NCBI RefSeq assembly: GCF_025502585.1
Contig: NZ_CP106679.1
Location: forward strand, 3,317,501-3,381,500
Length of the DNA: 64,000 bases
Direction of reading: 5' to 3'
Source of the DNA: Reichenbachiella agarivorans
GTDB lineage: Bacteria; Bacteroidota; Bacteroidia; Cytophagales; Cyclobacteriaceae
The notes beneath the pieces were generated by a model that was given only the letters and a program-made list of their open reading frames with translations, was not told where the DNA came from and searched no databases. The translations under genes were made by a program, and so were the position numbers. Every line of letters starts with the position of its first letter. Within the stretch, counting starts at the first letter, position 1. Of the stretch, positions 35,394 through 45,871 are shown in pieces.

Positions 35394-35648
35394 ATGGATC
35401 ATACTACCTATACCAACTTCAGACAAAATTTGAAATCATTCATGGATCGGGTCATGAATGACAGGATTCCTCTCTTGGTGACTCGCGCCCATGGACAGGA
35501 TGTAGTGGTTTTATCAAAGGCAGACTTTGACAGTATTCATGAAACCTTCTACTTATTGAAAAACCCACGAAACGCACAAAGAATATTTGAATCTTTGAGT
35601 GAACTACGAGATGGGGGAGGTTTTGAGAAATCAATACAAAAGCCATGA
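35394..35648 (+). CDS. yefM: YefM/Phd-family antitoxin
   Basis: An 84-residue antitoxin. The N-terminal fold RQNLKSFMDRVMNDRIPLLV and QDVVVLSKADFDSIHETFYLL (residues ~38-58) are the standard YefM pattern, and the C-terminal tail (SELRDGGGFEKSIQ) is the toxin-binding part. It overlaps the toxin gene by 4 bp, so they are translationally coupled. It neutralises YoeB and represses its own operon. Confidence 0.92.
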   Translation: MDHTTYTNFRQNLKSFMDRVMNDRIPLLVTRAHGQDVVVLSKADFDSIHETFYLLKNPRNAQRIFESLSELRDGGGFEKSIQKP

Positions 35649-35905
35649 CAAAGCTCATTAAATTTTCTTCTCATGCTTGGCTGGACTACATCCACTGGCA
35701 GAAGTCCGACAAGGAAATGAAGCAACTCATAGACAAGCTGTGCTTGTCTATTCTTGAAACTCCCTACCAAGGGTTGGGCTACCCCCAGCCGTTGAGCTAT
35801 GAATTGAATCAGATCTGGTGTCGCCGTATCAACATGGAACACCGCCTGGTCTACCGCATCAATAAAGATCAGATAGAGATATTGCAGTGTCGATTGCATT
35901 ATTGA
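35645..35905 (+). CDS. yoeB: YoeB/Txe-family mRNA interferase toxin
   Basis: An 86-residue ribosome-dependent RNase of the YoeB family. The start LIKFSSHAWLDYIHWQ, the middle YQGLGYPQPLSYEL, RRINMEHRLVYRI and the C-terminal CRLHY (with the conserved His-Tyr end, catalytic in YoeB) are all present. It is full length; no sign of decay. Confidence 0.93.
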   Translation: MTKLIKFSSHAWLDYIHWQKSDKEMKQLIDKLCLSILETPYQGLGYPQPLSYELNQIWCRRINMEHRLVYRINKDQIEILQCRLHY

Positions 35906-36807: not shown

Positions 36808-38424
36808 TTTGTGATTGGCTAACGAATTGGTATTTTTAACAGCAGTAAACAAAGAAACCGCCATGCTCGCTAGTTGTGATTGGCTAACGAATTGGTATTT
36901 TTAACAGCGAAAAATCTAAATGAACTGAAAGCAGAGAGGTTGTGATTGGCTAACGAATTGGTATTTTTAACAGCCACAGACAACAAAGTCATGAGGTCAA
37001 CTGAGTTGTGATTGGCTAACGAATTGGTATTTTTAACAGCCATTAAATGGTTTGTAGTCGATGTAATATAGTTGTGATTGGCTAACGAATTGGTATTTTT
37101 AACAGCCTGATAGTTCAGATGTTTTCAACTTTACCAGTTGTGATTGGCTAACGAATTGGTATTTTTAACAGCAACTGGTCTTGGTCTATCTCGCTTTTAG
37201 TAGTTGTGATTGGCTAACGAATTGGTATTTTTAACAGCTTTGAGATTTTCTTTAACTGCTCTAATGCAGTTGTGATTGGCTAACGAATTGGTATTTTTAA
37301 CAGCCAAAGATGGATCAGTGGGAAGTGTACAGACGTTGTGATTGGCTAACGAATTGGTATTTTTAACAGCACCAGAGTGACGGGATCACCAAGTACATCA
37401 GTTGTGATTGGCTAACGAATTGGTATTTTTAACAGCGAAAACGCATTCACCAATTTGACTGCTGAGTTGTGATTGGCTAACGAATTGGTATTTTTAACAG
37501 CCATAAGATGGCGGTTACTCATAAATTCAAGTTGTGATTGGCTAACGAATTGGTATTTTTAACAGCAATCGGTCACAGAAGAAAGAGAGAGAGCATGTTG
37601 TGATTGGCTAACGAATTGGTATTTTTAACAGCGGAGACTTAACACCGCTTAACGTTTTTTCAGTTGTGATTGGCTAACGAATTGGTATTTTTAACAGCTC
37701 TTCCCAGACGTATTTGTCAACGGAACCAGTTGTGATTGGCTAACGAATTGGTATTTTTAACAGCAAAGATGGATTAAACCAAAAAATAAACACAGTTGTG
37801 ATTGGCTAACGAATTGGTATTTTTAACAGCTCAGACTATGCGCAGGGATACTGGACACGAGTTGTGATTGGCTAACGAATTGGTATTTTTAACAGCCTTG
37901 ATGCGGCCTGTGACTGCATCGAAGAAGTTGTGATTGGCTAACGAATTGGTATTTTTAACAGCATATCACGCATGAGAACGCACTGGCTATGAGTTGTGAT
38001 TGGCTAACGAATTGGTATTTTTAACAGCCAATTGTATCAAATCAAGATGTGCCGTTTAGTTGTGATTGGCTAACGAATTGGTATTTTTAACAGCAATTGA
38101 AATAAAATGTGTCGTGATACCCATGTTGTGATTGGCTAACGAATTGGTATTTTTAACAGCCCCATATTTCAACACCTATGTGGACACGCAGTTGTGATTG
38201 GCTAACGAATTGGTATTTTTAACAGCGTGTGTGAATGGCTGGTGTAGTGTATCCGAGTTGTGATTGGCTAACGAATTGGTATTTTTAACAGCAAGGTATA
38301 AAATTTCAAGTATTAGCACCAAGTTGTGATTGGCTAACGAATTGGTATTTTTAACAGCTAAAATGCAAAACGGATTGTACAGACACAGGTTGTGATTGGC
38401 TAACGAATTGGTATTTTTAACAGC
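36808..38424 (+). CRISPR. Type II-C CRISPR array, 25 repeats of 36 bp and 24 spacers
   Basis: The repeat runs from GTTGTGATTGGC to TATTTTTAACAGC (36 bp). Repeats start at 36808 (first base changed G to T) and 36873, then every 65-66 bp until 38389. Spacers are 30 nt (21 of them) or 29 nt (the first, and those beginning at 37437 and 37502). The GTTGTG start and the anti-repeat upstream of cas9 fix the crRNA direction as the plus strand: crRNA is spacer followed by repeat. The altered repeat is at the end far from cas2, as expected for the oldest end. In each repeat TTG (positions 2-4), 19 nt and TATTTTTA (24-31) form a Bacteroidota-type promoter pointing into the next spacer. Protospacer sources are unknown. 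Confidence 0.98.
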
Positions 38425-38476: not shown

Positions 38477-38815
38477 TCAAAACATGGACAATTGTTGAGA
38501 TACTTGGGGCAGTTCCTTCGATTTTTTGCCATAGTATAGCTCCATCATCCCAAATTGTTTGTCCGTAATCACCATCACTGCGACGTGTCCGTCTGGGGGT
38601 AGGTTGAGCTTCACCCGTTTGATGTGTACGTCGGCATTTTCCCGACTGGGGCAGTGCCTCAGGTAGATCGAAAACTGAAACATGCTGAATCCATCCTTGA
38701 GCAATTTTTGCCTGAATGCCGCGGCATTCTTGCGATCTCGCTTGGTATCTGTTGGCAAATCAAAAAATACGAGTACCCACATGATTCGGTATTGGTTTAG
38801 TCGATGGGTTTGCAT
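38477..38815 (-). CDS. cas2: CRISPR-associated endonuclease Cas2
   Basis: A 112-residue protein of the Cas2 ferredoxin-like fold: [17 protein letters not shown] (conserved Asp in the first strand), [20 protein letters not shown], and [11 protein letters not shown]. If the internal ATG at 38782 is used, the protein is 101 residues, the usual Cas2 size, and starts [10 protein letters not shown]. With Cas1 it forms the spacer integrase. It overlaps cas1 by 19 bp under the longer start. The array lies 53 bp downstream of its stop codon. Confidence 0.93.
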
Positions 38816-39714
38816 CTCTCTGGGAGTTTCAGTTTGTCGCGATTGCCCAGCAGGCAGTCCGCCAGACTTGCCGTGGTGTATTGCACAGCGATCATGAGCG
38901 GTCGTCTTTCTTTGCCCATCATCACATCCACGGTAGGGAGCTGGAGCAGGTGCTTTTTGAGTTCGGGTGATAGTTCGTAGATATCTATGTCCTCCATGTC
39001 CATGATGGACAGTACCAGTTCGTCCACAAAGGGTCGGTAGGGCTCCATGATGTCATCTGCCAGGCAGTAGGCATTGTAGCGGTTGTGGTGATGGATGCCA
39101 AAGGTCGGCAACAGACCCGATCCTACAAGTGAGCGCGCCGTGATGGCACGCAGGATAGCATAGCCATAGTTGAGCATGTTGTTGGGTTCGTCCTCGAACC
39201 GTCCTCTTTTGAAGTCCTCCGTATGTGCTGAGAAGAGGTTCTTCCAATAATAAGCCGCCGCCCGTGCCTCCAGATTGTCAGGGTCACCAGATTTTACCTG
39301 TTTTGACCAGCGGATCATGTTGTCATGGTCATAGCAGATCGCCTCCAGTAGGGCAGCTTGATTTTTGATCTTAGCGGAGATGACCTGCTGCCAGAGACGC
39401 TTTTTGATGGGTTCGCTGGCTCTGGTTTGAGCTTCGAAGCGCTCTTGCTGTAGGGTGTGACCTGACAGATTGAGATGGAGACCCGTAGGCATGTGTCGAT
39501 CATCACAGCTGATCAGTGCTACGTTGTTTTCCATCAGCCTGTGCATCAGCCCTTGAGAGATGGTGATGCCATAGTGATCCAGTATCGCTACGCCTACATC
39601 CTCTATGGGGATTTTCATGTCTGGTTTGTCTTCCTCAGGGAATCGGATGACCAGCTGCTGGTCTTTGGTGCTGAGATAGGCGGGATTGCCAAAGTATAGG
39701 GTTCGTTTGATCAT
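38797..39714 (-). CDS. cas1: CRISPR-associated integrase Cas1 (type II)
   Basis: A 305-residue Cas1 of the subtype II group: [20 protein letters not shown] at the N-terminus, the beta-domain motif [20 protein letters not shown], and the metal site residues in [14 protein letters not shown] (Glu), [20 protein letters not shown] (His) and the acidic [15 protein letters not shown]. It integrates new spacers together with Cas2. The gene is separated from cas9 by the HIRAN-RAYT segment, unlike the compact cas9-cas1-cas2 order of usual II-C loci. Confidence 0.96.
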
Positions 39715-39746
39715 GGTCTTAGGGTCTTGGTTATTGTTTTATCTAG

Positions 39747-39781
39747 CAACTCTCCAAGGGTTCTAAACCCTTGGAGAGTTG
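39747..39781 (-). repeat. REP-like palindrome left of the RAYT gene
   Basis: Perfect 16-bp arms CAACTCTCCAAGGGTT and AACCCTTGGAGAGTTG around the loop CTA. It lies between the RAYT stop codon and cas1, and shares the GGTT-CTA-AACC core with the palindrome at 41315-41347. Confidence 0.8.
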
Positions 39782-39795
39782 GGGGTTTTCGTTGA

Positions 39796-40413
39796 CTATT
39801 CTAGTTTGATCTGGTCGGGATAGATGATGTTTTCTTGATGAAAAGATTTGAAAGCTGCTGTGCTCCCAAACCATTCGATAACCTCCTTTCGTTGCAGTTT
39901 CGTCGGTGCATCGCTAATCATGGCTTGATAGGAGGAGTGAGGCCAGTCGTCGTACTGCTTGCAAAAACGATGATGAATAGGGTTGTGGTGGATGCCCGCC
40001 TTCCGGACGGACAGGTAGTGGATGACCTTGGTCAGGTAGTCGTTGTTGGTGATTTCTTTTGATTTGAATGGTCTGTTGAATAACGAGCCTTGGCGATCAA
40101 GCTGTTTGTTTACTGCTTTGGTGTAAGAATTGAATAGGTTACTGAACTGCTTCGAAATTAGACCTGACAGGTTTTTAAAACCTGTCAGGTCTTTGTTTGT
40201 CAACGATAAGTTATTAGCAATTTCTAAATCTGAATAAACCCGAATCAAAGCATGAAAATGATTGGGCATCAAACAATAGGCATAAGTCTCTGCTACTGGT
40301 TCGATGTATTTTGCCCATTGCTGGAGGAAGAAGCGATAGTTCTCAGTGGACTTGAAAAGGTTTTCGCTTTCGTTGGCGTGGTTGTAGATATGGTAGTAGG
40401 TCTCAGCTTGCAT
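39796..40413 (-). CDS. REP-associated tyrosine transposase (RAYT, IS200-like)
   Basis: A 205-residue member of the Y1 transposase family (RAYT/TnpA-REP). It shows YYHIYNHANESENLF (residues 6-20), the HUH motif in CLMPNHFHALIRV (His52, His54), the catalytic Tyr candidate Tyr97 in FNSYTKAVNK and the conserved GSLFNRPFKSKEI. Such proteins cut and join single-stranded REP palindromes and are usually domesticated. An uncommon stretch KDLTGFKNLSGL (residues 74-85) is encoded by a palindrome inside the gene. It lies 14 bp after the HIRAN gene and may share its transcript. Confidence 0.9.
   Translation of the reverse strand: MQAETYYHIYNHANESENLFKSTENYRFFLQQWAKYIEPVAETYAYCLMPNHFHALIRVYSDLEIANNLSLTNKDLTGFKNLSGLISKQFSNLFNSYTKAVNKQLDRQGSLFNRPFKSKEITNNDYLTKVIHYLSVRKAGIHHNPIHHRFCKQYDDWPHSSYQAMISDAPTKLQRKEVIEWFGSTAAFKSFHQENIIYPDQIKLE
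40161..40191 (-). repeat. REP-like palindrome inside the RAYT gene
   Basis: GACCTGACAGGTTT and AAACCTGTCAGGTC, separated by the loop TTA (31 nt overall), lie in frame within the transposase gene and encode DLTGFKNLSG plus flanking residues. The inner part CCTGACAGGTTT-YTA-AAACCTGTCAGG is the same as in the palindrome at 41315-41347. Confidence 0.85.
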
Positions 40414-40427
40414 GATGGATGGCTATT

Positions 40428-41291
40428 TCATTCTTTGAAAATCACTTCGTAAAACTTCTCTCCATGCTTGTCAACTACTTCCATGAATTGTTTGATCCTA
40501 CCAGGAGATTTGGCGAGATGATCCACATTGGCGACTAGGTAGCTGTTTTCACCTAATATTGTGTCAATCTGTATCCAACTGTCATCCAGTCTTGCAGCGA
40601 ATCGCTCGATCTTTTCATCCATGACTTCTAGATTCTTTTTGATCAATATTCTGGACTCTTGGAAGGCTTGGTCAAAATCATCTGGGTGAGGAAATGAACC
40701 ATGGATGAGGTCATAGACGCTATCATCCTCGCTGTGGTCAACAAGGATTTGGTAGTAATCCTGTGCTGCTTCCATGCTGTATTTATCTTCCTCCCAATGG
40801 ACTCGGATGTAGCCATCGTCTCTGTGTCTCAGGGTGTAGTATTCGGGTGTTTCGAGCATGCTGAGGGTGGCATATTGCTCAAAGGACTCCTGAGTGGACA
40901 ATTCCTTGAGTGCATAGATGGCGACATGTACGTTTTCCCAAGTCGATGCTTTGGGTTCTACATGGGTGATTTCTGCTTGTAGTGACAGCAGGTTGGCATC
41001 CATCAGTTTGGCCAATACCTCGTTGCTCTCTCGGGGGACATAGCCAATCTTACGTTGGTTAAAGTGCAGGGCAATGGCGCAATTGTCGTGTTGGTTGGTG
41101 GGTTCTCGTACGAGCTGGAGCAGTCCGCTCTGGTTGATTTGTTGGATGATTTTAGGTCCCTCATAAAATTGAAAGCCTCTCACAAAACACTGCAATAGGT
41201 AGATCTTTTGGTATTGCCGTACCATCTGGGAGGGTAGGGCAGGGAGGCCATAGAGGCCGATCAGGTTTTTGATGAAGGTGGAGCGTTTCAT
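40428..41291 (-). CDS. HIRAN-domain protein inside the cas operon
   Basis: A 287-residue protein. Residues ~29-110 are a HIRAN domain: KIYLLQCFVRGFQFYEGPKI, LVREPTNQHDNCAIAL and KIGYVPRESNEVLA (the R-E-P-x-N-x-x-D-x-x-A-I and G-Y-V-P-R motifs). HIRAN domains bind DNA 3' ends in Rad5/HLTF-type remodellers, and stand-alone copies exist in bacteria. The rest (110-287) is an uncharacterised helical, acidic region. The first 20 residues (MKRSTFIKNLIGLYGLPALP) look weakly like an export signal. The gene is between cas9 and the RAYT gene, all in one direction; whether it acts in CRISPR immunity is unknown. Confidence 0.85.
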   Translation of the reverse strand: MKRSTFIKNLIGLYGLPALPSQMVRQYQKIYLLQCFVRGFQFYEGPKIIQQINQSGLLQLVREPTNQHDNCAIALHFNQRKIGYVPRESNEVLAKLMDANLLSLQAEITHVEPKASTWENVHVAIYALKELSTQESFEQYATLSMLETPEYYTLRHRDDGYIRVHWEEDKYSMEAAQDYYQILVDHSEDDSVYDLIHGSFPHPDDFDQAFQESRILIKKNLEVMDEKIERFAARLDDSWIQIDTILGENSYLVANVDHLAKSPGRIKQFMEVVDKHGEKFYEVIFKE

Positions 41292-41314
41292 GTTTCTTAG
41301 CTTACTTGAGTTTT

Positions 41315-41347
41315 AGCCCTGACAGGTTTCTAAAACCTGTCAGGGCT
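41315..41347 (-). repeat. REP-like palindrome between cas9 and the HIRAN gene
   Basis: Arms AGCCCTGACAGGTTT and AAACCTGTCAGGGCT around the loop CTA (33 nt), 12 bp downstream (minus strand) of the cas9 stop codon. There is no T-run. With the palindrome at 39747-39781 it brackets the HIRAN and RAYT genes. Confidence 0.85.
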
Positions 41348-41359
41348 TGGATTATGTGG

Positions 41360-44300
41360 TTATTCTCCGACTTTGATGATTTGGCCGAGGTGGTTGGTTC
41401 TAATTTTGGTTAACCGAGCTAGATGGGTATTTGACCCATGTTCATCCCAAGTTAAACCCTTTAAATCCATAGTACTTCGATTAAGAGAAGCTTCTAAATG
41501 ATGCCTGTAGGTTACTTCAAATGCTCCTGATGCTTTTTTAGTCATCTTTTGAAGCCTAAACAGCTTAGAGCTTATCGTGCTTCTGTTTAATGGATCAAAG
41601 AAATCTATCTCATTCTCGTTTTCTGGATTTTCTGAATGAATCAAATCAAAAACAAACAGGTCATTGATTTGCATTGAAAAATGAAAATCTCCCAAATCTG
41701 GATCATTGCTTTTATCTATTATAGGATAGGGCATGTCTGTGGCATTGATATTGGCGAGCCCAATTCCTACGGCGTCCCAAAAGCTGATGACTTTATCCTT
41801 GTATTTCCCATTTTCATCTTTGTATATCAGCGCGTGATGATTTCCGCCTTTTTTGACATATCCAGTCGGGATAATATGTCCCATACTAATAATACTGTTT
41901 CCTTGCAGATCTCTTTTTTGACTAGTAGGTATGGTCTGAGAGTCGTCATACACAGTGATAGATTTGACTTGTAAGCCTTGATCTTCGTTTAACCAAAGAG
42001 GGTTTTCGTTGATGCTTTTGAAAGCTTCTTTTATTTTGCCACCGTACTTATTGATTCTTTCATTAACTAATTGTTTGATTTTGTTGTCAACTATCTTTTC
42101 AACTTGAGCCTTGCTTATATTTTCAGATAGAGGGACTCTTTTTGAATTCACTTCTTCATAGACCAATACTTCTGTTACAACTTTATTCTGATAGTTAATT
42201 GGTGACTTACTCAGAGTCTTAGTTGTAAATGCTATTGATGGATTGTTTCCATGATTTTCTAAATGGTCTTTAACTATATCTCTTAATTCAGGGTTGACAA
42301 TGTTATCTACTTGTTTGAATTTGCTATTTAGTTTCGCTTTCTTTTTGGCTATTCTTTTGATACGCCCCATGACAGTTTCCTCGTGGAGTCTTGCTCGTGG
42401 TACCCACGTAGTTTGAGATTGCCCATTTTTAGGACGGTTAATGGTTTTGGTCAATACTTTTCCATTGTCCTTCTTAATAGAGATGAAAATGCTTTCTAGG
42501 TGGCTTTTTGCTTCTTTTCTAATTTTGGGTATAGGGCAGTCAAATACATGACCTTCATGGTCAATGAATTCTTTAAGATTTAACCCGTTTTCGAAGGTTT
42601 CTTGTAGGTCTTGAAGCTCTTCTTTGCTCAATGTATCTTTCTTGTATTGATAAATCTTGTTCAAGTTGTTAAGCTTAAATATGATCTTTTGATCTGTGAG
42701 TGCGCAAATGAGAGCATCTACGGCATGATGACGGTGGTCGTCTCGTTTGCTCCAGTCTTTTATAGTTTCGTAGGTTTTGATACTTCCAGAGCTGTCTTTG
42801 TATTCTTTCACTTCTATTTGACCAATGGCCTTGTATTTGTCAAAGCTTAAGTCTTGCAGTAGATGTTTCAATTCCCATTCGTCGCGAAGGAGATCAGTGA
42901 CTTGCCCTGTTGTGGTATAGGTGTCCGAGCAGACACTTTTTAAGAGTTTGACGGCTTCTTTGGTAATGTATTGCGAGTCTTTCATCATTCGTTCCACAAA
43001 ATCAGAAGGAATATCTGCTCCTTGAGTCATGAGGTTGTTGAATTTTTGTCTTGATATAGATCCAGCCCCGTCTTTGTAAAGAGTATTAACATTGGAAATG
43101 TATTGATCCAAGGCATCACCATCTTTATTGCTCATAAAGTCAAAGGCAGTTCTTTGGCCTTTGTCATTGTTGCATTTTTGATGAGCAAGGATATAATTAC
43201 TCATGGCGTTATTGAAACTCCTTGATTTTGGTAATATATGTTCGATATCTGCATTTCTGTGGAGTAAATCAGTACCAGTTATTGTTTTGTTACAGTATAG
43301 ACAGACTTTGTCTGTTTCCTCCCAAAGTCTATATCGTTTCACGTCTCTTCCGTTGACCAGTCTAAACCCATAGTTTATTTTGAGCTCATTTCTAATCCAA
43401 TCATTCCTTCGTTTATTGGAGGCATTTGATTTAGATATATTCTTTCTAGTGGCTGCTGAGTTTCTAAGTTCTCGTGCCAATTCAATACGTACTTCGTCAA
43501 ATGTGCCATAGGTGTCAATTGCTTGATTGACCATGTTGACTACTTGATTGAGTATCTGCTCTACTACTGGGTTGCGCAGACTATTCTGCTTGATGGGTTT
43601 CAGCTTTTCTTGAATTTCAATTTTGGTTTTGTACCCACTGTGGTCATAACCTACTTTGTCGCAGGCTATACTATAGCCTAGTCCTGACTCTAGATGTGGG
43701 AGCAACTTGCGAATGGCTCTGGTGGATAGTTTGCCATACTCAGACGAGTATCCAACGCTTTTGGCAATGATTTCTGATTGACTCTCGGTAAATCGAAACC
43801 TTTTGGCTAAAGATTGAGCAACTTGAGTAGTATCTGGTAGTGAGTAGGTGAGGTGCCACAATTCAAACAGACCGCCTTTTTCATCATTGGTCTTGTAGTT
43901 GAAATGCAGGTATTGCTCTGGATTTGCTACTTGACCTAGTTCTAGTGCTTTTTTTAGTGCACTGTATGTCCTGTTACCGTCTAATTCAGTAAAATTCAAG
44001 TAAATTCTCTCACGACTAGAAAAACCCAATAGTACTTTTATCTTACTTGCTGTCAACTTGTATTTTGCATTAAGGTCTGCGCCTTCCCATAGAGCTTTGA
44101 AAAGAATATTTTTCTGTTCTAAGCTGGGGAAATGAGTGATTCCCTCCGTGTCCTTCCATGACAGATCATTGATTCTTTGCCAGATTCTGTAAAGTTCGAA
44201 GTAGGGTGATGATTTAGCGATGGCTTTGTGTCCTTTTTCAAAGGAACAATTGGAAATCAATCCTTTTTGACTCTTTAATGGGCGTTGATAGAATAAAATC

Positions 44301-44989
44301 CTGTTCCTGATTAGATCGTAAAGGGTATTTTTATTAGTTGTTTCATTCACTCCTCCCGTCAATTGGGAATAATACTGTTTCTGCATAGTCCAGATTCGAT
44401 CAAATTCTTCTGTGTAGGACGACCGCAAATAGGTTCTCTCTCTAAGTAGTACTTCGTGAGGGTGTTGTTTGGCAATAAGTTCTTGATAGAGACTTTGACC
44501 AATTGTAGACTCTCCACGTCTTTTTTCCAGTTCCGCAATTCTTTCTTTATATTCTGTGGAGTTTTCCTCGTCACTGAGGGATTTTCTATTGCTTAGGAAT
44601 CCTCTCCTTTGATTGAGGTGAATTAATACACGCCCTAACTCCTCTATTGAGATTTGTTCTGTGACTGCTTTCGCTCGAAGACTGTATAGTTCTCTAGAAT
44701 TTAGGAGAAAGAGTTCTTTGGATGGGAACATGTCATGTTCTTTGAGAATGCGATAAAGCTTGTCCCTTCGTTGTTTGAATCTCTGGTTATTTCTCCTGAC
44801 TCCTCTTTTTTCTGTTCTAGCTAAATTTTTACTAGCTGTATTGCCAGAATAGAATTTTCCGTGAAAATCAGGATCCTCAGGTACTATTCTTACAGAGAGA
44901 TGCTCAATGCTAGTTTTTGTGTCATTTTTATTAATAATAGCCAGTCCCACGGAAGAAACGCCAATATCTAATCCTAGTATTCTTTTCAT
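41360..44989 (-). CDS. cas9: CRISPR-associated endonuclease Cas9 (type II-C)
   Basis: RNA-guided DNA endonuclease of 1209 residues, in the size range of subtype II-C Cas9 of Bacteroidota (no csn2 or cas4 nearby). RuvC-I is ILGLDIGVSSVGLAII (Asp6-8 region), the arginine-rich bridge helix is RRNNQRFKQRRDKLYRIL, RuvC-II is VRIELARELRNS (Glu near residue 502), the HNH domain is ADIEHILPKSRSFNNAMSNY with IEHI, QKCNNDKG (catalytic His ~584), and RuvC-III is DDHRHHAVDALICAL (His ~753, Asp ~756). The C-terminal ~400 residues form the wedge/PAM-interacting part and cannot be assigned a PAM. It is intact. The tracrRNA lies just upstream on the other strand. Confidence 0.97.
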   Translation of the reverse strand: MKRILGLDIGVSSVGLAIINKNDTKTSIEHLSVRIVPEDPDFHGKFYSGNTASKNLARTEKRGVRRNNQRFKQRRDKLYRILKEHDMFPSKELFLLNSRELYSLRAKAVTEQISIEELGRVLIHLNQRRGFLSNRKSLSDEENSTEYKERIAELEKRRGESTIGQSLYQELIAKQHPHEVLLRERTYLRSSYTEEFDRIWTMQKQYYSQLTGGVNETTNKNTLYDLIRNRILFYQRPLKSQKGLISNCSFEKGHKAIAKSSPYFELYRIWQRINDLSWKDTEGITHFPSLEQKNILFKALWEGADLNAKYKLTASKIKVLLGFSSRERIYLNFTELDGNRTYSALKKALELGQVANPEQYLHFNYKTNDEKGGLFELWHLTYSLPDTTQVAQSLAKRFRFTESQSEIIAKSVGYSSEYGKLSTRAIRKLLPHLESGLGYSIACDKVGYDHSGYKTKIEIQEKLKPIKQNSLRNPVVEQILNQVVNMVNQAIDTYGTFDEVRIELARELRNSAATRKNISKSNASNKRRNDWIRNELKINYGFRLVNGRDVKRYRLWEETDKVCLYCNKTITGTDLLHRNADIEHILPKSRSFNNAMSNYILAHQKCNNDKGQRTAFDFMSNKDGDALDQYISNVNTLYKDGAGSISRQKFNNLMTQGADIPSDFVERMMKDSQYITKEAVKLLKSVCSDTYTTTGQVTDLLRDEWELKHLLQDLSFDKYKAIGQIEVKEYKDSSGSIKTYETIKDWSKRDDHRHHAVDALICALTDQKIIFKLNNLNKIYQYKKDTLSKEELQDLQETFENGLNLKEFIDHEGHVFDCPIPKIRKEAKSHLESIFISIKKDNGKVLTKTINRPKNGQSQTTWVPRARLHEETVMGRIKRIAKKKAKLNSKFKQVDNIVNPELRDIVKDHLENHGNNPSIAFTTKTLSKSPINYQNKVVTEVLVYEEVNSKRVPLSENISKAQVEKIVDNKIKQLVNERINKYGGKIKEAFKSINENPLWLNEDQGLQVKSITVYDDSQTIPTSQKRDLQGNSIISMGHIIPTGYVKKGGNHHALIYKDENGKYKDKVISFWDAVGIGLANINATDMPYPIIDKSNDPDLGDFHFSMQINDLFVFDLIHSENPENENEIDFFDPLNRSTISSKLFRLQKMTKKASGAFEVTYRHHLEASLNRSTMDLKGLTWDEHGSNTHLARLTKIRTNHLGQIIKVGE

Positions 44990-45019
44990 TGTCAGATAGT
45001 TTTCTTTATATTCGTCTTA

Positions 45020-45107
45020 CCAATTTGTTAATCAATCACAATAAGGATTATTCCGTTGTGAAAACATTTAAAGCGGTCGCCTGCAACATGGTGGATCGCT
45101 TTTTTTA
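45020..45107 (+). ncRNA. tracrRNA
   Basis: The anti-repeat at 45020-45042 is complementary to repeat positions 1-23: 19 of 23 bases are Watson-Crick pairs, three more are G-U pairs, and one is a mismatch. It is followed by AAGGATTATTCCGTTGTG (45043-45060), the typical nexus sequence of Bacteroidota type II-C tracrRNAs, and then by a terminator hairpin AAAGCG...CGCTTT (from about 45069) with seven T at 45101-45107. A -7-like box TATATTCG (45007-45014) precedes the start. It is read opposite to cas9 and guides crRNA maturation and Cas9 loading. Confidence 0.92.
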
Positions 45108-45379
45108 TTTCCTGCCCACCATTCCTCCTTTGGTGGAATAACCATTGATTTTTCTCGAAATAGATATGCTGTGATCCGTGCTGAGTGGATCGGGGTATTA
45201 AACTAATACTTTAAGTTCAGAAAATGGAATACAAAGTTCATTTTTCTTACGCTGGTTTGTGGTGAAGCATATAAGGGTGCGCAAGCGGGTCGTAGTACAT
45301 TGATGCCTCAAATTGACATTTGACTGTAGGATTTGGTGTCTGTTTGGCACTTTGAAACTGCTGGTTAGCTAGTGAGCAA

Positions 45380-45459
45380 AACCCCCGCGGCTTTGCAGCA
45401 AAACCCGCGGGGGTTTGGCCTAAAACCCGCGCGGGTTTGATCGTGAACCCGCGCGGGTT
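45380..45459 (+). repeat. Four-unit GC palindrome array, second locus, 22-bp period
   Basis: Units start at 45380, 45402, 45424 and 45446, exactly 22 bp apart. The last two are the perfect palindrome AACCCGCGCGGGTT. The first (AACCCCCGCGGCTT) and second (AACCCGCGGGGGTT) are imperfect individually but complementary to each other over most of their length. Same unit number and period as the array at 10820-10899. Confidence 0.75.
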
Positions 45460-45871
45460 TTTTGGCACGGCACGGCGGGTTTGAAAGTGCCTGAAGTTTT
45501 AACATATTTTGGCAATGTTCACGACATTTTCGGAATGGAATTTGTTCTTAGCAAATTGTCTTCAGACACATCGAAAAGGCCACTCGATACCCCGTTTGTT
45601 TCTACCCCAGTTTCGTCAGATGATCACTGTCTTCACTACCAGTATAGACAAACACCGCTTTCGCAAGCCCAAGCCTAGCCATGTCCCACTGCTCACAGTC
45701 ACGACCTAGCAAAGCAACCCCTTTGTAGCAAGTAGTATGCAAGTCACACTTAGCAAAGTCCCAGACAACTGATGTCGGCTCAGCTAAGGTCTCACAGGAT
45801 CGGTATGTCCTAGCAACGCCACGGCACGCGAAGCAAAGTTTAATTTTTTTCACTTTTTAAATTTTAAGATC
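45460..45871 (+). other. Intergenic stretch with CTAGC/TTAGC motifs
   Basis: About 410 bp before the HU-like gene with no coding frame I trust. From about 45676 to 45823 the motifs CCTAGC, CTTAGC and CAGCTAAGG recur at irregular 25-45-bp spacing in a C-rich context. It may be the remains of another tandem repeat; nothing functional is recognised. Confidence 0.35.

Follow-up and report, generated by a model that had tools for sequence, protein, structure and literature searches.

In the 64,000-nt stretch of the Reichenbachiella agarivorans genome analyzed here (NZ_CP106679.1, positions 3,317,501 to 3,381,500; the window), a type II-C CRISPR-Cas operon contains two additional genes between cas9 and cas1, one encoding a HIRAN-domain protein and the other a RAYT (a TnpA_REP-like Y1 HUH protein). 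The association of HIRAN and RAYT genes with type II cas operons was found to be solid. Since relatives have kept or recruited both genes repeatedly, they look like unreported CRISPR helpers rather than a chance insertion. The reading that we put forward, and to which we give an even chance, is that the HIRAN and RAYT genes were recruited separately, as accessories on the adaptation (cas1-cas2) side of Bacteroidota type II-C systems, where they would act on DNA 3' ends and hairpins.

The locus and the HIRAN protein

The operon and its surroundings contain the following features.

41360-44989, minus strand: cas9, 1209 aa, TIGR01865 (E 1.1e-149), RuvC and HNH motif strings
40428-41291, minus strand: HIRAN-domain gene, 287 aa, PF08797 HIRAN at residues 31-126 (E 4.7e-15)
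39796-40413, minus strand: RAYT gene, 205 aa, H52/H54 as the HUH motif and Y133 as the tyrosine
38797-39714, minus strand: cas1 (type II), TIGR03639 (E 2.6e-90)
38477-38815, minus strand: cas2, TIGR01573 (E 1.9e-19)
36809-38424, plus strand: CRISPR array, 36-nt repeat, 25 copies
45018-45041, minus strand: anti-repeat of a probable tracrRNA upstream of cas9, matching the repeat on the opposite strand in 21 of 24 nt

The original prediction, made from the letters alone, had placed the HIRAN and RAYT genes at these positions, between cas9 and cas1 and in the same orientation. The open reading frames (ORFs) and the family searches with Pfam, PADLOC and NCBIfam profiles agreed with it, the RAYT scoring below the curated cut-offs (51 bits with NF047646 REP_Tyr_transpos, cut-off 80; 20.3 bits with Y1_Tnp, Pfam cut-off 23). 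The array contains 24 exact repeats within 36873-38424 and one more at 36809-36843 that matches in 35 of 36 nt. With its array, anti-repeat and the expected Cas9 motif strings, the CRISPR system looks complete. The intergenic spacing is 68 bp between cas9 and HIRAN, 14 bp between HIRAN and RAYT, and 81 bp between RAYT and cas1, and cas1 and cas2 overlap by 19 bp. The locus was assigned to type II-C by gene content, as cas9, cas1, cas2 and an array are present and csn2 and cas4 are both absent; the family searches identified the extra genes as HIRAN and a Y1 protein, neither of them Csn2 or Cas4. The usual three-gene operon, which is a description of type II-C and not a criterion for it, is not matched, since HIRAN and RAYT separate cas9 from cas1.

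The HIRAN domain scored 55.6 bits with Pfam (cut-off 24.7), and its profile matched the human HLTF HIRAN structures 4xzf and 4s0n (E about 2e-6), with RxPxNxYDxxAI in common. The AlphaFold model had a mean pLDDT of 69, with blocks at 79-91 within residues 31-130, and a Foldseek comparison with the HIRAN-DNA structure 4s0n gave an E of 2.2e-6. Over the C-terminal half, which was modeled with low confidence, no Pfam family exceeded its cut-off, and the Pfam search found no motor or RING domain in the protein. In the HIRAN domain of HLTF, Y72 and Y93 stack on DNA and mutation of N90/N91 disables the domain (PMC4666394, PMC11237066). The equivalents were assigned by our reading of the profile alignment with HLTF. 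In 16 aligned rows, the equivalent of N91, N66, is invariant, that of Y72 (position 42) is F or Y in all rows, and that of Y93 (position 68) is Y in ten, H in three, F in one and V in two, the window having H. The predicted 3'-end-binding motif is conserved. Prokaryotic HIRAN domains were termed uncharacterised in 2024 (PMC11090510).

One HIRAN family is linked to type II cas operons

The HIRAN protein is present as a single copy in its own genome. An order-level search gave matches in 71 of 390 genomes, mostly weak ones to the HIRAN domain only. The four best matches outside the window (G020, G036, G079 and G120) all adjoin type II cas1-cas2; around the fifth (G130, locus L037, 235 aa), the 19.5 kb examined contain no cas gene. 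From genome_contigs, a profile scan yielded 101 relatives, of which 80 were kept, 15 of these being full-length (L123-L137); four of the 15 coincide with the G contigs above. Type II cas1 and cas2 were found in the same cluster as ten of the 15 full-length HIRANs, with cas9 in all nine whose contig reaches it. A further cas-linked HIRAN gene, flanked by small ORFs on both sides, was found in L280 (G623). Altogether, of the 18 near-full-length HIRANs examined (window, L037, L123-L137 and L280), 12 are located within or adjacent to a type II cas operon. This linkage spans three arrangements and several orders of Bacteroidota; L133/L134 and L135/L137 are near-copies.

cas9-HIRAN-cas1-cas2: L124 (Flavobacterium), L130 (Pedobacter segetis), L132 (Sphingobacteriales)
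cas9-HIRAN-cas1-cas2, contig cut upstream: L123 (Flavobacterium), which starts at HIRAN and has a Y1 gene ahead of cas1
cas1-cas2-HIRAN: L131, L133, L134, L136 (Cytophagales/Bacteroidetes metagenome-assembled genomes)
HIRAN-cas9-cas1-cas2: L135, L137 (Flavobacteriia)

The gaps flanking the HIRAN gene are short, 10 bp on each side in L124 and 3 bp in L036 = L136. On the HIRAN tree (26 rows), the CRISPR label requires two changes, compared with 8.9 when shuffled, and none of 500 shuffles was as low. Type II cas1 is held by 59 of 395 phylum genomes, and we estimate the chance expectation of a HIRAN gene within a 20-kb cas neighbourhood of an approximately 4-Mb genome at less than 1 in 1000.

HIRAN domains at large are mostly situated away from cas1: with the window counted in each set, type II cas1 is within 10 kb of only 3 of 22 places in the family genomes (two of the three being short HIRANs upstream of cas9) and of 2 of 35 places in the phylum genomes. 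In addition, tblastn with the window proteins found no cas9, cas1 or cas2 at the 65 weaker HIRAN loci, many of which are on short contigs. Thus, it is one near-full-length HIRAN family that is CRISPR-linked, not HIRAN in general.

Two candidates were rejected. L042 and L111 have short HIRANs of 156-187 aa upstream of cas9, which were not counted as support because they form a separate branch and because the gene occurs in a similar setting, but with no CRISPR, in L041, a genus-mate of L042. A search for HIRAN among phages and plasmids, as possible cargo, gave partial domain matches only (five phage records and one plasmid, none with ≥80% coverage), together with three partial relatives in viral_contigs. 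The short genes (L042:9323-9793 and L111:15269-15832, upstream of cas9 in two genera, and L041:9276-9746) have a signal-like N-terminus.

RAYT genes in the cas9-cas1 gap

H52, H54 and Y133 were invariant in all 25 rows of the RAYT alignment, which comprised the 24 copies from the cas9-cas1 slot described below and L101. Cognate palindromes of the repetitive extragenic palindromic (REP) type, one of the criteria for a RAYT, lie beside the gene. Directly after the catalytic tyrosine, the window RAYT has an LSVRKAG insert (39994-40014, residues 134-140); the genus-mate L084 likewise has seven extra residues there, and the 23 other rows have none.

The window's family is represented by 196 genomes, in which 41 good type II cas1 hits and a remnant in G504 made up 42 loci. 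A RAYT relative was found between cas9 and cas1, on the same strand, in 24 of the 42, and in the same gap of one (L261) of 56 phylum loci outside the family. Two genus-mates, G436 and G504, have RAYT and lack HIRAN, and no RAYT was found in the ten HIRAN-bearing cas loci of the genome_contigs scan; the histories of the two genes are therefore independent. Of the two origins originally proposed, an accessory pair recruited to the cas operon or a mobile cassette bracketed by palindromes, recruitment is supported and the single cassette is not. The original prediction also held that a CRISPR role would be unlikely if HIRAN/RAYT pairs occurred mostly away from cas genes and the empty site in relatives pointed to a recent chance insertion. 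The first of these does not apply to this HIRAN family, as 12 of its 18 near-full-length members adjoin or lie within cas operons. For RAYT the picture is mixed: solitary genes predominate, with 24 of approximately 129 places in the gap, yet a RAYT is present at more than half of the type II loci of the family.

In these counts, L090, which ends 472 bp upstream of cas1, was scored as lacking RAYT, and the decayed L084 (no cas9 seen, broken cas1) as having it; the latter was omitted from the cas1 tree and the Mantel tests. Tandem RAYT copies of L093 were counted once, and an opposite-strand RAYT beyond cas2 in L101 was not counted. Among the 56 outside loci, no cas1 ORF was mapped in L304, cas9 was unlabelled in L283, L293 and L297, and cas9 lies on the opposite strand beyond cas2 in L292, L294-L296 and L298-L300. 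Weak RAYT-like matches (23-36 bits) on the opposite strand after cas2 in L294, L297, L298 and L300 were left uncounted, as was a strong match several genes off in L303.

The RAYT tree has 55 rows and requires 9 changes of the slot label, compared with 18.3 when shuffled. On the cas1 tree, RAYT presence requires 10 changes (at least 8 of them forced), compared with 13.6, and 15 of 500 shuffles were as low. Because of these counts, the presence of RAYT in the slot is neither one undisturbed inheritance nor random scatter. In 29 RAYT stretches from non-cas sites (1.7-6.6 kb each), tblastn found no cas neighbour. Upstream of the intact RAYT, L093 (8600-8854) and L107 (2991-3241) each have an N-terminal fragment of such a gene, and a palindrome stands at the end of the L093 fragment, as if a new copy had replaced an old one.

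Palindromes at the locus and within RAYT genes

Three perfect inverted repeats were located, the first two of which, with their common core, were found where they had been predicted; the third had been overlooked.

39747-39781: palindrome in the RAYT-cas1 gap, 16-nt arms, CAACTCTCCAAGGGTT
41315-41347: palindrome in the cas9-HIRAN gap, 15-nt arms, AGCCCTGACAGGTTT
40160-40192: palindrome inside the RAYT ORF, in frame, 16-nt arms, AGACCTGACAGGTTTT

The outer two have a GGTT...AACC core in common and unlike arms (CAACTCTCCAAGGGTT versus AGCCCTGACAGGTTT), and are therefore not the ends of one cassette. The palindrome at 41315-41347 is of the same type as the one in the RAYT gene (88% match). The form CTGACAGGTTT...AAACCTGTCAG has five sites in the 4.47-Mb genome, two of them at this locus, and a control pattern has none.

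The in-gene palindrome of the window RAYT scored 16, compared with at most 9 among 40 codon shuffles, and for 21 of the 25 RAYT genes in the alignment the top palindrome score was at least 12, above all 40 shuffles. In the homologues these palindromes cluster at residues ~61-97, with arms that vary yet remain complementary. The exceptions are L088 (shorter), L092 (degenerate), and L091 and L096, where the best palindrome sits elsewhere. RAYTs outside the slot also have one (L101/L224 and four of five others whose ORFs were shown). A flanking and an in-gene palindrome were both present in 17 of the 24 slot loci. In these loci, with flanks selected by rule, the best flank shared 0.53 of 5-mers with its own in-gene palindrome and 0.29 with those of other loci (permutation p 0.0001); the own palindrome was clearly closer in 12 loci and not in L099, L104, L106, L111 and L113. 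Such in-gene palindromes are not new, as REP insertion within RAYT genes has been reported for subclass 2.4 (PMC6006769).

Co-variation with cas1 and selection

The divergence of both proteins follows Cas1 more closely than Cas9. Mantel tests on 23 loci gave r = 0.70 for RAYT and cas1 (p 1e-4), 0.22 for RAYT and cas9 (p 0.01), and 0.30 for cas1 and cas9. For HIRAN, the values were 0.70 (10 loci) or 0.67 with cas1 and 0.34 (9 loci) with cas9, leaving out the near-copies L134 and L137, and L123 as well where cas9 was needed. In L103/L107, cas1 is 97%, RAYT 84% and cas9 30% identical, and with L105/L108 included the ranges are 96-97%, 84-87% and 30%. In such close pairs cas9 was swapped, and RAYT and cas1 were retained. 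Exchange of cas9 at a fixed site has also been described in Flavobacterium psychrophilum (PMC10309648). RAYT itself has been exchanged for another RAYT in L042 compared with L104 and in L083 compared with the window. The ratio of nonsynonymous to synonymous substitution rates (dN/dS) was 0.08-0.26 for HIRAN (5 pairs) and 0.04-0.24 for RAYT (8 pairs); both genes are under purifying selection, with several dS values saturated.

Possible functions and alternative explanations

We favor a role in adaptation, since the two genes go with cas1-cas2 and the two protein families act on the ends or hairpins of single-stranded DNA. The human counterpart of HIRAN binds single-stranded DNA at its 3' end. 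The bacterial protein may likewise present such an end, from a prespacer or from a strand cut by Cas9, to Cas1-Cas2, and might thereby fill the slot of Csn2 in II-A or Cas4 in II-B systems. By family, RAYT is a single-strand hairpin endonuclease; it could nick or trim single-stranded intermediates near the integration step, or else control cas1-cas2 expression through the palindromes in the operon and in the RAYT gene. We tentatively extend this, while regarding the extension as somewhat doubtful, to a larger adaptation complex: together with Cas1-Cas2, a Y1 HUH transposase that has been domesticated and a HIRAN protein that binds 3' ends would capture or finish spacers. Such a complex would be the missing II-C counterpart of Csn2/Cas4, and a second alliance of an HUH transposase with the Cas9 lineage after TnpA-IscB.

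Several results weigh against an accessory role. RAYT is lacking in 18 of the 42 family loci (one, L090, being cut by the contig end) and lies in the gap at only 1 of 56 loci outside the family. Both RAYTs and REP palindromes are repeats, most of which are found in other places. The ~129 RAYT places in the family genomes, counted by eye and including some fragments, are mostly solitary outside the cas9-cas1 gap, and the RAYT tree forces at least five switches between cas and non-cas sites. The dN/dS of RAYT exceeded that of cas1 in five of six comparable pairs. Its position beside cas1 alone could yield the correlation with cas1, given breakpoints between cas9 and RAYT. Array length was rejected as a gauge of RAYT activity: by simple comparison of arrays found away from the locus edge, repeat numbers of 14-60 where RAYT is present (the window among them) and of 9-67 where it is absent overlap. 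No cas gene is seen around six near-full-length HIRANs (L037 and L125-L129, of which L125 and L126 are from one genome and L129 stops at a contig edge), and outside the window's family full-length HIRAN is rare, being found at 1 of 56 type II loci. Other small genes, too, enter cas operon gaps.

The main rival, which is serious even though we consider it unlikely, is that RAYT is a tolerated REP-type element: one old insertion left palindromes in the gap, more RAYTs are drawn to these or recombine with them, spread of the module accompanies that of cas1-cas2, and only HIRAN, if either, is functional. The likeness of flanking palindromes to the in-gene one of the same locus (17 loci), the fragments upstream of intact copies in L093 and L107 with the palindrome at the L093 fragment end, the swaps of one RAYT for another in L042 and L083, and the solitary RAYTs elsewhere all fit such an element. 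It is harder to reconcile with the intact catalytic residues, the deep co-variation with cas1, a slot that gets refilled and not merely emptied, and the presence of another Y1 type in the same slot of L269 and L123. Strand and slot are also the same in 24 of 24 copies, although the operon might select against a reversed copy. By comparison, arrival of HIRAN and RAYT together as one recent mobile cassette that landed by chance is hardly credible and already contradicted. The 14-bp spacing and the palindromes on either side suggested it, but the unlike palindrome arms, the genus-mates with RAYT and without HIRAN, and the separate recurrence of each gene in cas operons speak against it. As regards the empty site that comparison of related loci was to reveal, no clean one was found for the HIRAN gene alone.

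It is also conceivable, though in our view improbable, that HIRAN acts at interference by binding the 3' end of the non-target strand after the Cas9 cut, so freeing Cas9 or steering end processing. The HIRAN domain of HLTF binds Cas9 post-cleavage complexes, and HLTF with the N90A-N91A mutations is mostly unable to remove Cas9 (PMC11237066); N66, which corresponds to N91, is the residue that is invariant in the 16 rows. However, HIRAN divergence follows cas1 (0.67-0.70) more than cas9 (0.34), the gene lies downstream of cas2 in four loci, and no motor domain was found in the protein, whereas HLTF needs its motor.

Other genes in cas operon gaps

L269:5967-6398: IS200-type Y1 protein, cas9-cas1 gap (Pfam)
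L123:964-1395: IS200-type Y1 protein, HIRAN-cas1 gap (Flavobacterium), near-identical to the L269 protein (assigned on sequence only)
L272:7456-7911: IS200-type Y1 protein, cas1-cas2 gap (likewise)
L033:11305-12525 and L100:5489-6619: ATPase_2-type AAA ATPases, cas9-cas1 gap
L035:1020-2159: ATPase_2-like gene by sequence likeness, cas9-cas1 gap

The cas9-cas1 gap admits several kinds of accessory gene, with repeated occurrence of HIRAN and of Y1 proteins; we count the Y1 proteins of L269 and L123 as convergence in favor of an accessory role. Their motif, YIKNQxEHH, is like that of the non-IS subclass 1.2 (PMC6006769). The ATPase_2-type genes, found in this gap in three genomes, are possibly another recurrent accessory, and the gap also contains a DUF4143 ATPase in L089 and PRiA4_ORF3 in L042. 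Small ORFs in the cas1-cas2 gap of L263 (3580-4032), L274 (6017-6515) and L278 (4739-5059) have, by eye, the look of DUF559-type or GIY-YIG nucleases. Elsewhere in the window, GC-rich interleaved palindromic repeats with CCCGCGCGGG cores lie upstream of cas9 (45375-45461), and two small adjoining ORFs about 1 kb from the array (35394-35905) resemble a YefM/YoeB-type toxin-antitoxin pair.

Comparison with known systems

The open-access papers searched included none that connects HIRAN or RAYT with type II cas operons, nor was there one combining HIRAN with 'type II-C'. The HIRAN passages of the open-access papers examined do not deal with cas genes, and the open-access co-mention of RAYT and CRISPR-Cas concerns reverse transcriptases. 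'HIRAN' is absent from the main text of a large CRISPR-gene survey (PMC10910872), and the word CRISPR from the main text of PMC6006769. Bacterial HIRAN has been described beside HipA, as a predicted antitoxin (PMC11706625). The candidate defence proteins PDC-M03B of PADLOC share the HIRAN region (E 1.4e-16, ~106 residues only) and are not cas-linked by name.

Csn2 in II-A and Cas4 in II-B systems are adaptation accessories encoded beside cas1-cas2 that act on DNA ends. HIRAN and RAYT resemble them as extra genes beside cas1-cas2, but the families are unrelated and the likeness is one of analogy only. How spacers are selected and trimmed in type II-C systems, which lack Csn2 and Cas4, is to our knowledge an open question. 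Two small, separable genes from families of known biochemistry (3'-end binding and single-strand hairpin cutting), recurring with cas1-cas2, make it testable. Type II-C has been described as cas9, cas1, cas2, array and tracrRNA (PMC10309648); the window has Cas9, a type II Cas1, Cas2, an array and a probable tracrRNA upstream of cas9, and differs by the two same-strand genes between cas9 and cas1.

With the RAYT/TnpA_REP subclasses 2.4 and 2.6, the window RAYT shares the NHxH and YxxxNP motifs and flanking palindromes, and with 2.4 the reported in-gene REP (PMC6006769), but it differs by its placement inside a cas operon. The HIRAN protein shares the fold and the RxPxNxYDxxAI motif with HLTF/Rad5, and differs in its C-terminal half and in that no motor or RING domain was found. 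IS200/IS605 elements pair TnpA, a Y1 HUH protein, with IscB of the Cas9 lineage. The window likewise has a Y1 HUH protein beside a Cas9-lineage nuclease, but here RAYT tracks cas1 and not cas9. Through its HIRAN domain, HLTF grips the 3' end freed by Cas9 cleavage (PMC11237066), and a bacterial HIRAN next to cas9 would be a natural counterpart of human HLTF removing Cas9 from cut DNA.

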